Assembly (NCBI GenBank): GCA_021463195.1
Contig: JAJTXZ010000003.1
Location: forward strand, 62,001-126,000
Origin: Anaerolineae bacterium
GTDB lineage: Bacteria; Chloroflexota; Anaerolineae; UBA4142; SHND01
Direction: 5' to 3'
DNA: 64,000 bases
The position numbers were made by a program, and so were the translations under genes. Below the pieces are notes generated by a model. That model worked only from the letters and a program-made list of their open reading frames with translations, searched no databases and had not been told where the DNA came from. Below, piece by piece: positions 56,446 to 62,910 of the stretch (positions are counted from its first letter, which is position 1; each line of letters opens with the position of its first letter).

Positions 56446-56888
56446 TCGCGGAATTCGCGCATAAGGCATAGATGTAGGCGTTTTGGCTCGCGCTAATACT
56501 ATATCTGTCAATTTGCGAGTTTATATCCCTTGTGTTAGTATCGTTCACGCTCCGCGCGACACAACGGAAATAGCGAGTTCAAATTTTCGCGTTGCCGCGC
56601 TTTACCCGAAAGAACAATTTGAATCGAGACGTGGCAGTTTCCGCTCGCCCTTTCATTTCTGTTTCGTGCGCTGTAATGGCGAATGACGCCAGCGCTCACG
56701 ACTATTTCCGGCATTTCATTAAACGTTCGAATGATTGCTCTGCCGCGCGTCCGCGCGCGCAGCTTGCGGCGCATTGGATAATGCGTCATTGATTCTAGTT
56801 GTAGAGCAGTCTTTTTCAAAGGCGGTCGCAAGCGGTCACACTTGGTTTTCACAACACATTGGGCGTGACTGTTTGCGCAAGGATACTC
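56446..56888 (+). other. Intergenic spacer before the exported glycosidase gene
   Basis: I see no gene, RNA or clear promoter here. The DNA has no strong coding bias in any frame. A few short inverted repeats are present (for example near 56775-56790) but none resembles the families described. It ends in AAGGA (56879-56883), the likely SD of the next gene. Confidence 0.5.
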
Positions 56889-59816
56889 TTGAACGCAGGA
56901 CCTTCCAATCCCCTTGAACAATTTACGCATTGGCTGGGCAAGCATCCCGGCTCGGCGTTGGTTTATTTTGCGCTGCTGCCGACGCTCGCGTGTTTGGCGC
57001 TGATTTTGCCGCCGCTCGCGCTGCCTTCGCGCATTGGCAATTTGGGCTATACCTCTTTTAGCAGCAAAGGGGTGACGCTGAATAATTCAGACGGCGCGGA
57101 AATTACGATTCCCGAAGATGCGGTAAAAAATGGCGCCGCCGCGCGCTTGGCGACAACTACGCTCGAAGCGCTGAACGCGGACCAAGTGACGCAACCTTTG
57201 CCTTCTACTTTGGACGTGGTGAGTCCGGTGTATCAAATTGAGACTCAGGGCGAACAACCCAATGCATCGCATTTGAGTCTGCCGCTGCCGCCGGACGTTG
57301 AACCGTACGATACGCTGGATGTTTTCGCGATGTTCAATCGGCGTTGGTTCAAAATTCCCTTTACGCTCAATCTGGACGATGAGCGCGTGGAATCGAATTT
57401 GAATTTTGTGCCGCAGGCGGTGGTGATTGCGCAAACGAATATGCGCGCGCCGCTCATCTCGGCTGATATTCAAGCGCGCAATGTGCTGTCGGACGCGGCG
57501 GATAATGTCATCGCGCAAGTGAATCCGATTGGCTTGCAGTTGGCGGACATGGGCGGCATCGCCGGCGAACCGTTGGTGTCGCCCGAAACAAACGCGTCCT
57601 CCAATTTCGCGGTTGTGCCGACGATTACGAATGTGGACGCCAATGGCGCGCGCACCGATTTGACCGGCAATATGATGATGGATCCCGACGCGCGCGCGGC
57701 GCACATTCACGCGTTGGTGGATCTCGCGGTGCAAAAGGTGTATCGCGGCTATAACATTTCGTATCAAGATATAGGCACGGCTGACCGCGAATTGTTCACC
57801 GCGTTCATCAAACAGTTGGCGAGCGCGCTGCACGCGCAGCAAAAAACTTTGACTGTCACGCTGCCCGCGCCTATTCCCATTTCGGAAGAAGAATTTGATA
57901 CCGCCGGTTATGATTGGGCGCTGCTGGGACGCTATGCCGACCAGATAAAAATTCCCTTGCTCAGCGACCCGCGCGCGTTTGAAGGCGCGCCTTCGCTGCA
58001 AGATCAATATCTCGCGTGGGCGGTGACGCAAATTGACCGCAGCAAATTATTGTTGGTTGCGCCGATGGAAGGGCGCGATAGCACGGCGGATACGTATTCG
58101 CCTGTCACGTTTAACGACGCGTTGAAACTCATTGGCGCGGTGAGCGTGCCGCCGAACGCGCAGCCGGGTTCCGATGTGACGCTGGAAATGCAAGGGCTGA
58201 AACAAGCGGGCGGCATTCAGACGCATGAGCCGAGCGGACTGCTTTATTTCAATTACACGGATAGCAATAACAAGGCGCATACGGTGTGGTTGGAAAACGC
58301 GGATTCGTTGTCGCGCAAAGTCGCGTTGGCAATGAAATACAATCTCGGCGGCGTCGCGGTCGCGGATTATGATGTCAAGAATGGCGTGGATGAGCGCATC
58401 TGGACGGTGTTGGAAAATTACAAATCCATGCAGTCGACGACTGTCGAAAATAAACTCCAGCTGATTTGGAAAGTGGACGGTAAAGAAATCGGCAAAACAT
58501 CGCTGCAAGATCCGCGCGTGGTTTGGCAAGCGCCCAAGGATAGCGGTCAACACAATATCCAAGTCGCGCTTTCGGTGGATGGTGAAATCTCGGCGGGCTT
58601 GCCTCTGAGCGGCGTCATAAAACTCGCCGAAGCGAAACCTACGCCCAAGCCGACTGAACCGCCCAAGTCAACCGAAGCGCCCAAAGCGACGAATAAGCCC
58701 AAACCGACGACTGCCGTGTCCACGGGCGATAACAATCCCGCGCCGCCGCCGACCAAAACCGCGCCGCCGCCGCCAACGGGCGGAAATTTCGCGGGCAAGG
58801 ATATGTTTGCGTATGGAATTCAATTGGATTGGACCAACAAAGACCGCGATGCCGAATTGAATCAAGTTCAGGGAATGGGTTTTAATTGGGCAAAGATTCA
58901 AGTGCGTTGGTGCGACATGGAAGGTTCCAAAGGCAACGCGGATTTGGGTTCGACGGATGATTTTGTTGGCAAAGCCGCCGCGCGCGGCATCAAAGTGATT
59001 TTCAGTGTCGTCTGCGCGCCCGCGTGGTCGCGTTCGGATGGTGGCGCAGGTGGTTCCGGTCCGCCCGACAATATGAATGATGCGGCGGATTTCATGGCGG
59101 GGCTTGCGTCGCGCTATTGCGGCAAAGGGCTGGGCGCGATTGAAGTGTGGAACGAACATAATCTCTTGACCGAGTGGCACGGCAAACCATTGTCCGCGCC
59201 GTTGTATATGGACATGCTCAAAGCGGCGTATCCGCGTATCAAAGCGGCATGCCCCGATATTGTCGTCGTTTCGGGCGCGCCGACGCCGACCGGTTGGAAT
59301 GACGGAGTAGTCGCGATTGACGATGGCGTTTTCCTTGAGCAAATGTATCAGAATGGATTAAAAGAAAATTCGGATGCCATCGGCGCGCATCCGAGCGGTT
59401 TTAACGTTCCCGCGTTATGCAACATCATGGACCCCGGGTGCAATCGTCCCGAAGCTTCATTCCGCGCGCCGTTTGATAGTCGGCATCACAGCTGGGGCTT
59501 TTTGGGCACCATGCTCACTTATCGCAACATCATGGTAAAGTACGGCGATGGCAACAAACAGATTTGGCCCACTGAATTCGGCTGGCCCATTCATACGGGC
59601 GGCTCGTGCGGTGGTGGCCCCTGTCACGCGGCGGGCGCGGATAATTCGCCTGAACAAGCGGCGCAGTGGTACGTCGAAGCGTATCAATGGGCAAAGAAGC
59701 AGGGGTGGGTTGGCGTGATGACGGCGTGGCAGTTGGACTTTGACCGTGGTGAATTGGACGCGTTCCGCATCGCGGGTCATCCGGCGTATGATGCGCTGGC
59801 GGCGATGCCGAAATAA
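56889..59816 (+). CDS. Exported two-domain glycosidase-like protein (GH18-like + clan GH-A)
   Basis: The ~975-residue protein starts at TTG 56889 with AAGGA five bases before it. A longer frame from 56859 is possible. An N-terminal TM (SALVYFALLPTLACLALIL) anchors or exports it. Residues ~60-580 look like a GH18/YaaH-like barrel, but the DxxDxDxE catalytic signature is absent, so that domain is probably non-catalytic. A Pro/Lys/Thr-rich linker (~580-640) follows, then a clan GH-A domain with acid/base Glu756 (EVWNEHNL) and nucleophile Glu896 (WPTEFGWP). It should act on a surface or extracellular polysaccharide. Substrate unknown. Confidence 0.75.
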   Translation: MNAGPSNPLEQFTHWLGKHPGSALVYFALLPTLACLALILPPLALPSRIGNLGYTSFSSKGVTLNNSDGAEITIPEDAVKNGAAARLATTTLEALNADQVTQPLPSTLDVVSPVYQIETQGEQPNASHLSLPLPPDVEPYDTLDVFAMFNRRWFKIPFTLNLDDERVESNLNFVPQAVVIAQTNMRAPLISADIQARNVLSDAADNVIAQVNPIGLQLADMGGIAGEPLVSPETNASSNFAVVPTITNVDANGARTDLTGNMMMDPDARAAHIHALVDLAVQKVYRGYNISYQDIGTADRELFTAFIKQLASALHAQQKTLTVTLPAPIPISEEEFDTAGYDWALLGRYADQIKIPLLSDPRAFEGAPSLQDQYLAWAVTQIDRSKLLLVAPMEGRDSTADTYSPVTFNDALKLIGAVSVPPNAQPGSDVTLEMQGLKQAGGIQTHEPSGLLYFNYTDSNNKAHTVWLENADSLSRKVALAMKYNLGGVAVADYDVKNGVDERIWTVLENYKSMQSTTVENKLQLIWKVDGKEIGKTSLQDPRVVWQAPKDSGQHNIQVALSVDGEISAGLPLSGVIKLAEAKPTPKPTEPPKSTEAPKATNKPKPTTAVSTGDNNPAPPPTKTAPPPPTGGNFAGKDMFAYGIQLDWTNKDRDAELNQVQGMGFNWAKIQVRWCDMEGSKGNADLGSTDDFVGKAAARGIKVIFSVVCAPAWSRSDGGAGGSGPPDNMNDAADFMAGLASRYCGKGLGAIEVWNEHNLLTEWHGKPLSAPLYMDMLKAAYPRIKAACPDIVVVSGAPTPTGWNDGVVAIDDGVFLEQMYQNGLKENSDAIGAHPSGFNVPALCNIMDPGCNRPEASFRAPFDSRHHSWGFLGTMLTYRNIMVKYGDGNKQIWPTEFGWPIHTGGSCGGGPCHAAGADNSPEQAAQWYVEAYQWAKKQGWVGVMTAWQLDFDRGELDAFRIAGHPAYDALAAMPK

Positions 59817-59892: not shown

Positions 59893-61401
59893 ATGCGATA
59901 CGCTGACTTTTTTGGCAAAACCAAACGCGACGCGCCGTCAGAAATAAGCGACGCGACTTTGCGTCTTGCGTTTCGCGCCGGGTTAATTCGTCCGATGCCA
60001 AACGGGCAATGGTTGTATCTGCCGCTCGCGTCCAATGTCCTTTCGCAAATGTTTTGGATGCTGCGCGGCGAATTAAAAGAACTCGGCGCGCAGGAAATAC
60101 GGACTGGAGCGGAGGTCGCGCTTGACGCGTTGGGCGCAACGGAAATTCAATCGTACAAACAGCTGCCCGCGCGCGTGTATTGGCGCAGCGACGGCGTGAC
60201 GCGTTTGACGTTCGCGTCGCTAGAAGCGAGTCTCGACGCGGCGCAGCAAATACAGCGCGTCTTTGATAAAGTGGCGTCCGATTTTTTTAGTTATGCCGGC
60301 ATCGCCGCGCGCAGCGCGCGGGACACGCATGACACGCGCGTCTGGTACGCCGACGCGCCCGCGCGCGATTTGGAAGTTTTTCGCAGCGACGCGGGCGCGT
60401 ACGCGGCAACGCGCGCGGCGGCAGCGCCCTTTAAAGCGCCCGCGCCGCCGGAAACGCCGCAGCCATTGCAAGAAATCGAAACGCCGCATTGCGAGACGAT
60501 TGATGCGCTCGCGCGATTTTTGAATGTGCCGACGAGTCGCACCGCCAAAGCGGTATTTTATTCGGCGGAGGGACGCGTTATTTTCGCGGTCATTCGCGGC
60601 GATTTGCAAATTGACGAAGACAAAGTAAAACGCGCGTTGGGCGTCCACGCGCTGCGGTGGGCGACGGATGACGAAATCGCGCGCGTGGGCGCGACGCCCG
60701 GTTTTGCGTCGCCGATTGGCGCGCGCGGCGCGACCATTATCGTGGATGATTCCATCGTGAATTCGCCGAATTTGGTCGCGGGCGCGAACAGAGCCGATTA
60801 TCATTTGTTGAATACGAATGCGCCGCGCGATTACAAGCCCGATGTCGTCACGGATATCGCGTTGGCGCGCGCGGGCGACCCAAGTCCCGATGGCAGCGGC
60901 GCGCTCGAACTCGCGCGCGGCATCGCGTTGGGGCAGCTTGCCGCGCCGCGCGAATTGGACGCGAGTTTCCTGGACGTAAACGGCAAGGCGCGCAAATTGT
61001 TTGCGGTGGAAATGGTTTTTGATTTGGGCGCGGTCTTGCTGGCGCATGTCGGCGCGCATCACGACGACCGGGGAATTGTGTGGACGCGCGCGCTGGCGCC
61101 GTTCGACGCGCATATCGTCGCGCTGAACGCGGACAAACCCGAAGTCGCGCCCGTGTTGGCGCGCGTGATTGACGCGTTGGAATTGCAAGGGTTGGATGTG
61201 TTGGTGGACGACCGCAATGAAAGCGCGGGCGTAAAATTCAATGACGCCGATTTGCTCGGGATGCCGCTGCGCGTGACCATCGGGCCGAAAACCGTCGCGC
61301 AGAATATAGTTGAATTCAAAGCGCGGCAAGAGGATGGCGCGCGCGCGGTGGCGTTGGACGCGCTGGCGCAAGCGATTGAACAATGGCAGGACCGCGTCTG
61401 A
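59893..61401 (+). CDS. Prolyl-tRNA synthetase-like protein lacking catalytic motifs, with intact editing and anticodon domains
   Basis: The 502 residues follow bacterial-type ProRS order but are ~70 shorter than usual. The start (FRAGLIRPMPNGQWLYLPL) and ETQSYKQLP-like segment (EIQSYKQLPARVYW) are recognisable. The stretch that should hold the TxE loop (GPTHEEV), motif 2 (FRDE...) and motif 3 (GxGxxR) is deleted or changed: the motif 3 region reads MVFDLGAVLLAHVGAHHDDRGIVW, with no Arg. The inserted YbaK-like editing domain (~193-315) is well kept, with Lys219 in SRTAKAVFY. The C-terminal anticodon-binding domain (APFDAHIVALNAD to VDDRNESAGVKF) is also kept. It probably cannot charge tRNA but may hydrolyse mischarged tRNA or bind tRNA-Pro. 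Confidence 0.8.
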   Translation: MRYADFFGKTKRDAPSEISDATLRLAFRAGLIRPMPNGQWLYLPLASNVLSQMFWMLRGELKELGAQEIRTGAEVALDALGATEIQSYKQLPARVYWRSDGVTRLTFASLEASLDAAQQIQRVFDKVASDFFSYAGIAARSARDTHDTRVWYADAPARDLEVFRSDAGAYAATRAAAAPFKAPAPPETPQPLQEIETPHCETIDALARFLNVPTSRTAKAVFYSAEGRVIFAVIRGDLQIDEDKVKRALGVHALRWATDDEIARVGATPGFASPIGARGATIIVDDSIVNSPNLVAGANRADYHLLNTNAPRDYKPDVVTDIALARAGDPSPDGSGALELARGIALGQLAAPRELDASFLDVNGKARKLFAVEMVFDLGAVLLAHVGAHHDDRGIVWTRALAPFDAHIVALNADKPEVAPVLARVIDALELQGLDVLVDDRNESAGVKFNDADLLGMPLRVTIGPKTVAQNIVEFKARQEDGARAVALDALAQAIEQWQDRV

Positions 61402-61976
61402 TGCGGATTGCGCTTGTGTTGGCGGCGAGCGCGGTCGGCTGGATTGCGCTGCATTCGGCGCTCATCGTTTGGCTTGGAACGCACACGCAGCCACAGCGTT
61501 CGGACGTGGCGGTTATTTTGGGAACGCGTGTTTTACCCAGTGGAGTGCCTTCGTTTTGGCTGCGCGAGCGGCTCGAACGCGGAGTGGAATTGTATCAAAC
61601 GGGCGTCGTAAGAAATATCATTGTCAGCGGCGGATTGGGGCGCGAAGGATATGAAGAAGCGGACGTGATGCGCGAATATCTGATGGCGCGCGGCGTTCCC
61701 GCTGAACGAATTATCGCCGATCGCAGCGGCTATGATACGTTTGCCACCGCGCGGCGCGCCAAAGAAATTATGCGCGCGCGCGCTTTTGAATCGGTTGTCA
61801 TTGTTTCGCATTATTATCATATTCCGCGCGCGGAACTCGCGTTCAAGCGTTTCGGCATTTCCAATATCTCGGCGTCGGGTGTGGTGACGAATCCACGTTG
61901 GCGGGATGGCGGAAATTTGCTGCGCGAGTTTGCCGCGTTTTATTTTTATGCGCTGAGGAATTATGCCACGACGTAA
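61401..61976 (+). CDS. YdcF/SanA-family (DUF218) membrane protein
   Basis: This 191-residue protein has one N-terminal TM (RIALVLAASAVGWIALHSALIVWLG) and an extracytoplasmic DUF218 domain. Motifs are VILGTRVLPSGVPS, IIVSGGLGREGYEEADVM and SVVIVSHYYHIPRAEL with RSGYDTFATARRAKEI, as in SanA/YdcF proteins linked to envelope integrity. ATG 61401 shares one base with the previous stop (TGATG), so translation is coupled. Function in cell-envelope or sugar-phosphate turnover is inferred from the family. Confidence 0.88.
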   Translation: MRIALVLAASAVGWIALHSALIVWLGTHTQPQRSDVAVILGTRVLPSGVPSFWLRERLERGVELYQTGVVRNIIVSGGLGREGYEEADVMREYLMARGVPAERIIADRSGYDTFATARRAKEIMRARAFESVVIVSHYYHIPRAELAFKRFGISNISASGVVTNPRWRDGGNLLREFAAFYFYALRNYATT

Positions 61977-62910
61977 AAAAGAATCTACTAATGACCCAAT
62001 CATCGAAACGCCTGTGTCGCTGCATCGCGCGGGCTTTTGTGTCATCGTCGGACGCCCGAATGTGGGCAAATCAACGCTGCTGAATTTGTTCGTCGGCGCC
62101 AAAGTAACGATTGTTTCCGACAAGCCGCAAACGACGCGCCGTGTGGTGCGCGGCATTTTAACGCGTCCTGACGCGCAAATTGTTTTTGTGGACACGCCGG
62201 GCATTCATCGCCCGATTCATCCACTCGGCAAATTTATGGTGCGTTCGGCGGTGGACACGCTCGACGATGTGGATGTTGTGGTGTTTGTCGTGGATGGTTC
62301 TAAAATGCCGACGCGTGAAGATGAAGACATCGCGGAAATGTTGAACACGCGTACAAAAGCGCCTGTGCTGCTCGCGCTGAATAAAATGGATTTGCTGAAA
62401 CGCGACGCGATTGGCGAAATTACGCAAGCGTTTTTTGATTTGGTGAAACATGATGATTGGATGCGCTTGTCCGCGACGAAAAATGAAAATACGGACAAGT
62501 TGCTCGAGATGATTGTGGCGCGGTTGCCCGAAGGTCCGGCGCTGTATCCTGAAGATGAAATCACCGATACGCCGATGCGATTTCTCGCGGGCGAACTCGT
62601 GCGCGAACAGTTGCTTTTGAATACGCGCCAAGAAGTGCCACATTCGATTGCGGTGCAGGTGGACGAATGGGAAGAGCGTTCGCCGCAGTTGACCTACATT
62701 TCCGCGACGATTTGGGTGGAAAAGGATTCGCAAAAAGCGATCGTGATCGGCGAGCGCGGGAGTATGTTGAAAAAAGCGGGGCAAGCGGCGCGCAAAGAAA
62801 TCGAGGCGTGGCTCGGACATCAAGTGTATTTGGAATTGATCGTCAAGGTGCGTCCGCAGTGGCGGCGCGATGATCGGTTGCTGCGCGAGTTGGGTTTTTC
62901 GCTCGATTGA
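61963..62910 (+). CDS. era: GTPase Era
   Basis: Era is an essential GTPase that binds 16S rRNA and assists 30S maturation. It has 315 residues. G1 is GRPNVGKST, G2 lies in DKPQTTRR, G3 is VDTPG and G4 is NKMDL. The C-terminal KH domain includes VIGERGSMLKKAGQAARKEIE and the ELIVKV-type end. The frame overlaps the ydcF-like gene by 14 bp, so it is part of the same transcript. The ~18-residue basic N-terminal extension (MPRRKKESTN) before the GTPase is not unusual. Confidence 0.96.
   Translation: MPRRKKESTNDPIIETPVSLHRAGFCVIVGRPNVGKSTLLNLFVGAKVTIVSDKPQTTRRVVRGILTRPDAQIVFVDTPGIHRPIHPLGKFMVRSAVDTLDDVDVVVFVVDGSKMPTREDEDIAEMLNTRTKAPVLLALNKMDLLKRDAIGEITQAFFDLVKHDDWMRLSATKNENTDKLLEMIVARLPEGPALYPEDEITDTPMRFLAGELVREQLLLNTRQEVPHSIAVQVDEWEERSPQLTYISATIWVEKDSQKAIVIGERGSMLKKAGQAARKEIEAWLGHQVYLELIVKVRPQWRRDDRLLRELGFSLD

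Follow-up and report, generated by a model that had tools for sequence, protein, structure and literature searches.

The ProRS-ed gene and its locus

The window analysed here, a 64,000-nucleotide stretch of one contig from an Anaerolineae bacterium, carries on its forward strand a gene for a 502-amino-acid derivative of prolyl-tRNA synthetase (ProRS), for which we propose the name ProRS-ed (editing-only ProRS derivative). The gene, its parts and the two genes that follow it are given below, with the evidence for each in brackets.

59893..61401, + strand: ProRS-ed gene, 502 aa, ATG start (ORF, Pfam/NCBIfam, orthologs in congeners, AlphaFold)
59893..60105, + strand: residues 1-71, helical N-terminal portion of the class II fold and motif 1 region, cut short ahead of the Pro of motif 1 (alignment by phmmer with 5znj, 2j3l and 5ucm; homologue alignment)
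60106..60387, + strand: residues 72-165, catalytic-core remnant and deletion site of the TxE loop, motif 2 and the pre-SHEF loop (alignments, motif tables)
60481..60822, + strand: residues 197-310, YbaK-like editing domain (INS), in which K219 and H304 are invariant (Pfam PF04073 tRNA_edit, E 1e-25)
60547..60549, + strand: codon of K219, the editing Lys, equivalent to E. coli K279 (alignment to 5ucm residue 287; invariant in 66/66)
60823..61092, + strand: residues 311-400, remaining second part of the core, in which motif 3 reads FDLGAVLL, with Ala in place of its Arg at about residue 375 (alignment)
61108..61383, + strand: residues 406-497, anticodon-binding domain (ABD), HGTP_anticodon, with the DDRNESAGVKFNDADLLGMP signature intact (Pfam PF03129, E 3e-15)
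61383..61976, + strand: DUF218 protein gene, overlapping the ProRS-ed gene; a neighbour kept across the genus (Pfam; synteny)
61963..62910, + strand: era GTPase gene, overlapping the DUF218 gene; a neighbour kept across the genus (ORF; synteny, 85-90% identity in the genus)

The initial annotation of this DNA placed the gene at the head of a run that includes era, and the ORFs bear this out: those of ProRS-ed, DUF218 and era overlap head to tail, in an order kept in the genus. Where the flanks are visible, the gene order across the genus is a large glycosidase-like ORF, ProRS-ed, DUF218, era, GrpB and DUF4058. The upstream ORF (985 aa, window positions 56859-59816) is syntenic in the genus with about 67-94% identity over the parts seen, and by eye its C-terminal half is glycoside hydrolase-like, joined to a long Pro/Thr-rich linker.

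Loss of the catalytic site

The closest solved proteins to ProRS-ed by phmmer are the bacterial ProRS structures 5znj, 2j3l and 5ucm, and the protein is a bacterial (P-type) ProRS that lacks the TxE loop, motif 2 and the Arg of motif 3 and keeps its INS and ABD domains. In an alignment with 86 ProRS homologues it has about 65-80 residues fewer than its intact relatives; the homologue alignments show the TxE segment, motif 2 (FRDE...REF) and the loop before SHEF to be deleted, while every one of the six genus members has Ala at the position of the motif 3 Arg. Alignments and motif tables agree here with the initial annotation, which had described the loss of the TxE loop, the motif 2 Arg segment and the motif 3 Arg, with about 70 residues missing. 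Its caveat that motifs 2 and 3 might turn up in a shifted alignment did not hold, as alignment and pattern scanning restore neither and the scan found no motif 3 in ProRS-ed. WRSD at residues 96-99, the one string resembling motif 2 close to its expected place, was considered as a shifted motif 2 and ruled out, its Arg being His or Ser in some congeners.

Profile searches gave the same picture. The class II core family tRNA-synt_2b (PF00587) had no Pfam match in ProRS-ed even at E = 10, and the NCBIfam scores lie below cut-off for both NF006625 (282 bits, cut-off 558) and TIGR00409 (204 bits, cut-off 306.7). With the class II motifs absent from its congeners as well, ProRS-ed falls outside the canonical bacterial ProRS. 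Across 66 aligned P-type proteins, tRNA_edit and HGTP_anticodon were matched in every one and tRNA-synt_2b in 39.

The editing Lys of ProRS-ed aligns with native K279 of the P. aeruginosa ProRS, which is residue 287 of the tagged 5ucm chain (8 tag residues); the K279A mutant of E. coli ProRS is editing-defective (PMC3973320). In the ABD, residues D439, R441, G446, F449, A452, D453, L454, G456 and P458 are invariant over the 66 aligned sequences. That an editing domain with Lys219 and an anticodon domain had both been kept was likewise part of the initial annotation, and is upheld by the two Pfam matches and the invariance of K219.

Conservation, selection and predicted fold

A full-length ProRS-ed ortholog is present in all five congeners searched, at 66-74% identity, with a mean dN of 0.20 and a dS of about 1 within the genus, values that show purifying selection, which is focused on INS. 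The INS domain is 82% identical within the genus (dN 0.11) and 51% identical to the INS of intact relatives; residues 72-165 are the least conserved region in the genus, at 58%. An AlphaFold model made with 66 window and locus sequences as input has a pLDDT of 95.9 and a pTM of 0.90, and its best Foldseek match is the E. faecalis ProRS (2j3l/2j3m; TM-score 0.78, 28% identity). The earlier reading that the protein is not a product of random decay is supported by the full-length frames in the five congeners, a dN well below dS and the compact, high-confidence predicted fold. An assembly artefact or frameshift was ruled out by same-shaped orthologs in five other assemblies and in public MAG records.

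The distribution of constraint was compared across lineages with and without an intact loading site. In each of the eight defective lineages no region is better conserved than INS, although the N-terminus equals it in one of them, and the first core segment generally ranks last; in each of the six intact lineages conservation of the core is close to that of INS or exceeds it. The INS Lys and the INS His (residue 304 in ProRS-ed) are present in 87 of 87 class sequences and in 20 of 20 added ones, in every catalytic state. Among the sequence evidence, this move of constraint away from the core and onto INS speaks most strongly for editing as the retained function.

A second ProRS, other INS proteins and tRNA-Pro genes

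The window's genome (G000, 98% complete) encodes one complete archaeal/eukaryotic-type (E-type) ProRS of 478 aa on contig C73, which scores 529 bits to TIGR00408 (cut-off 437); a ProRS encoded elsewhere in the genome is what the initial annotation had supposed. Its domains are tRNA-synt_2b, HGTP_anticodon (ABD) and ProRS-C_1, and the editing domain (tRNA_edit) had no match in it. Three standalone single-domain proteins of the INS superfamily are also encoded, one YbaK-like, one like TTHA1699 of T. thermophilus (2cx5) and one distant, at the following positions.

L002 1450-2022, - strand: standalone INS-superfamily protein
L003 344-832, - strand: standalone INS-superfamily protein
L004 1459-1944, - strand: standalone INS-superfamily protein

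The YbaK-like protein reaches 132 bits to TIGR00011, below the cut-off of 153, and could handle Cys. No standalone protein of this genome matched a ProXp-ala structure by sequence.

The genome has three tRNA-Pro genes, with GGG, TGG and CGG anticodons. An altered tRNA-Pro as the reason for two ProRS was ruled out, as all three genes have the normal bacterial C1:G72/A73. The TGG gene (L104 1500-1574) is without an encoded CCA, which the GGG and CGG genes have.

Distribution and repeated origin in Chloroflexota

We scored a P-type homologue as defective when at least one of five residues was lost (the T and E of TxE, the two motif 2 Arg and the motif 3 Arg). The first, unselected set consisted of 60 nearest and family-representative genomes and gave 47 usable P-type sequences, which divide as follows: intact without E-type ProRS, 16; intact with E-type, 11; defective without E-type, 0; defective with E-type, 20. 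The co-occurrence of a defective P-type protein with an E-type ProRS has p = 9e-6 in this set (Fisher, with kinship not corrected in the table); a kinship-corrected pair test had just four contrasts on well-supported branches, too few for significance. The same pattern holds over 87 class genomes, where all 48 with a defective protein have an E-type ProRS and all 21 without E-type are intact, in a set deliberately enriched for short forms, so that only the unselected table is an unbiased test. The 11 unselected genomes with both ProRS intact indicate that gain of the E-type enzyme permits, and does not enforce, loss of the P-type active site.

In the class sample an E-type ProRS was found in 164 of 248 genomes, 131 of which also keep a P-type homologue (joint count by hand); none was detected in the other 33, in a sample made up mostly of MAGs, so that absence calls can be wrong. 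Given these 33 genomes, ProRS-ed is dispensable in some lineages.

A tree built from the columns of INS and ABD, motif 3 being excluded, requires 15 changes between intact and defective states on the best topology, and its well-supported branches force at least four. We give 15 as the best-tree figure and four as the supported minimum because the two longest branches (L054, L060) are not reliably placed. Loss of the loading site has thus arisen several times independently in Chloroflexota.

The P-type forms grade from those with point losses down to proteins of 400 aa in which the entire TxE-motif 2 segment is missing. In genus g194 (family f65, of another class) forms of 530-540 aa lack TxE, the motif 2 Arg and the motif 3 Arg, and an E-type ProRS is present. 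The minimal forms, of about 400-430 aa, occur in family f29: the segment from the N-terminal helices to the zinc-finger-like CxxC before INS is gone, and just INS, ABD and a small scaffold are retained. The AlphaFold model of one 400-aa form has a pLDDT of 94.7.

Several further observations were made among these genomes. In family f26, G043 (L016) and G060 (L063) have the pre-TxE segment and the pre-SHEF loop deleted and most catalytic residues remaining, which by sequence makes them a possible early stage of erosion; in G043, 79% complete, this partly eroded protein was found and an E-type gene was not detected. In G031 (L043), G008 (L032), G161, G072, G098, G178, G187 and G247, one contig carries both the P-type homologue and the gene of the E-type ProRS, no more than a few kb apart and in some cases adjacent, an arrangement that may record the arrival of the E-type gene or help coupled expression. 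The defective ProRS of L023 (G051, family f34) and L070 (G147, family f18) are practically identical, with branch lengths under 0.01, by recent transfer or, more likely, through a misbinned contig. Neither a P-type nor an E-type ProRS was found above thresholds in G010, G012 and G041 (about 93% complete), with a weak match of 3.8e-4 in G012, and the gap may be one of assembly or may reflect a third, more divergent solution.

Proposed function and alternative explanations

The E. coli ProRS INS domain does not read the acceptor stem, its tRNA-Pro specificity coming from contact of the ABD with G35/G36 (PMC3973320, PMC11295145), and the known substrate of ProRS INS is Ala-tRNA(Pro) (PMC3973320). 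Whole ProRS is able to edit in trans (PMC4787780, citing Ling and co-workers). From these two properties it follows that a ProRS-derived editor would need INS, ABD and a scaffold, and would not need the synthetic site, a prediction that matches the parts kept in ProRS-ed.

We consider it quite probable that ProRS-ed is an anticodon-guided trans-editing factor that clears Ala-tRNA(Pro) made by the E-type ProRS; its activity, its substrate, the guidance by anticodon and the order of events are what we infer. In the proposed mechanism, Pro-tRNA(Pro) would be supplied by the E-type ProRS, which is without an editing domain and from which some release of Ala-tRNA(Pro) would be expected. The older bacterial enzyme would thereby become redundant for aminoacylation and could lose its catalytic motifs. 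It would be retained for the hydrolysis of Ala-tRNA(Pro) in trans by its INS, and recognition of the anticodon bases G35/G36 by the ABD would spare Ala-tRNA(Ala).

The same protein might instead have been kept for its ABD-tRNA contact or its dimer interface, acting as a regulator that binds tRNA-Pro or joining the E-type ProRS as a partner subunit. HisZ is a catalytically dead synthetase paralogue with another role. More such paralogues are known (PMC4787780), and ProRS-ed does keep the signature of its ABD and a good part of the scaffold; yet such a role would not call for INS to be the most conserved region in every defective lineage compared, with its catalytic Lys and His invariant, or for minimal forms pared down to little more than INS and ABD, and we regard it as unlikely. 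An editing factor whose main target is a different tRNA or amino acid, such as Cys-tRNA(Pro) or some non-protein amino acid, is a further reading, the specificity of the superfamily being broad and variable (PMC11295145) and conserved residues alone not revealing a substrate. This we judge rather improbable, since the INS is of the ProRS type, as its identity to that of intact relatives indicates, with Ala-tRNA(Pro) as its known substrate (PMC3973320), and a separate YbaK-like protein is encoded in the genome.

The stepwise loss of motifs across relatives, from one residue to a whole segment, is also what a functionless duplicate on its way to a pseudogene would leave behind. We reject this reading, to which very little probability attaches, because the frame is open at full length in all six genomes of the genus, with dN at 0.2 against a dS of about 1 and at 0.11 in INS; several lineages have moreover reached the same outcome, and pLDDT is above 94 for both ProRS-ed and the 400-aa form. 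That ProRS-ed is still an active ProRS with a merely divergent synthetic site is suggested by the class II scaffold retained in the AlphaFold model, but the elements that bind Pro and ATP (TxE loop, motif 2, Arg of motif 3) are absent, tRNA-synt_2b finds no match and the same genome has a complete E-type ProRS, and this reading is almost certainly wrong.

Extending the trans-editing interpretation to the phylum, it is likely that in Chloroflexota the acquisition of an E-type ProRS without editing has repeatedly turned the resident ProRS into a multi-domain, anticodon-guided ProRS-ed, all stages of which survive: both enzymes intact, then point losses and deletions, then 400-aa INS-ABD forms. 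A synthetase body minus its active site would then have been kept, several times, as an anticodon reader for an editing site, with the intermediates extant. How anticodon recognition by the ABD reaches an INS site about 70 Angstrom away is an open question (PMC3973320), for which the surviving ProRS-ed stages are natural experiments, the 400-aa minimal forms suggesting which scaffold suffices. Many ProRS-ed proteins are probably mis-annotated as proline--tRNA ligase, which, if true, would mislead predictions of essential genes and drug targets.

Comparison with known systems

ProRS-ed has the fold and domain order of the bacterial P-type ProRS, and differs from it in lacking TxE, motif 2, the motif 3 Arg and a core-domain match. 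By its tRNA_edit domain with an invariant catalytic Lys it belongs in sequence to the INS superfamily, in which the members other than the INS of ProRS are single-domain proteins (PMC11295145, a 2024 review). It shares with YbaK the superfamily fold and the catalytic Lys; unlike ProRS-ed, YbaK is a single domain without tRNA specificity of its own and depends on a complex with ProRS (PMC3973320). ProXp-ala clears Ala-tRNA(Pro) in trans, as we propose for ProRS-ed, but is a single domain that reads C1:G72/A73 of the acceptor stem (PMC3973320), whereas in ProRS-ed INS is joined to an ABD. The HGTP_anticodon domain and core scaffold attached to its INS place ProRS-ed outside the single-domain trans-editors YbaK, ProXp-ala and ProXp-ST.

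The literature searched reports trans-editing for proline only by single-domain proteins and by complete ProRS working in trans; full-text searching, with subscription journals and preprints outside its coverage, turned up no account of an editing-only protein derived from ProRS. ProRS-ed therefore seems to be undescribed, and its multi-domain type seems not to be represented among the described members of the INS superfamily.

Two further systems are based on ThrRS. The apo form of the Anabaena T1 ThrRS likewise is a synthetase that edits in trans on behalf of a paralogue; its change is reversible (zinc-dependent), whereas that of ProRS-ed came by genetic loss of the catalytic motifs (PMC4787780). 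ThrRS-ed, found in some archaea, is the direct analogue in function, without being a homologous family, and is, like ProRS-ed, a truncated class II synthetase that has lost its catalytic site, keeps its editing domain and ABD and stands beside a separate synthetase (PMC9976931); it is a Ser-tRNA(Thr) deacylase (Korencic 2004, cited in PMC4787780; PMC9976931). ProRS-ed has two features of a protein of this type, a lost catalytic site with editing domain and ABD kept, and a separate, complete, editing-less synthetase in the genome. Identity with ThrRS-ed proper was ruled out (NF011500, 15 bits against a cut-off of 362, with the match through the ABD only). ThrRS-ed derives from a Thr synthetase, has an unrelated editing domain and is archaeal, whereas ProRS-ed combines ProRS and INS, occurs in Chloroflexota and has several origins and a graded loss of the core. 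Synthetase-derived trans-editing factors are thus already known from ThrRS-ed, and to these ProRS-ed adds unusual evolutionary depth.
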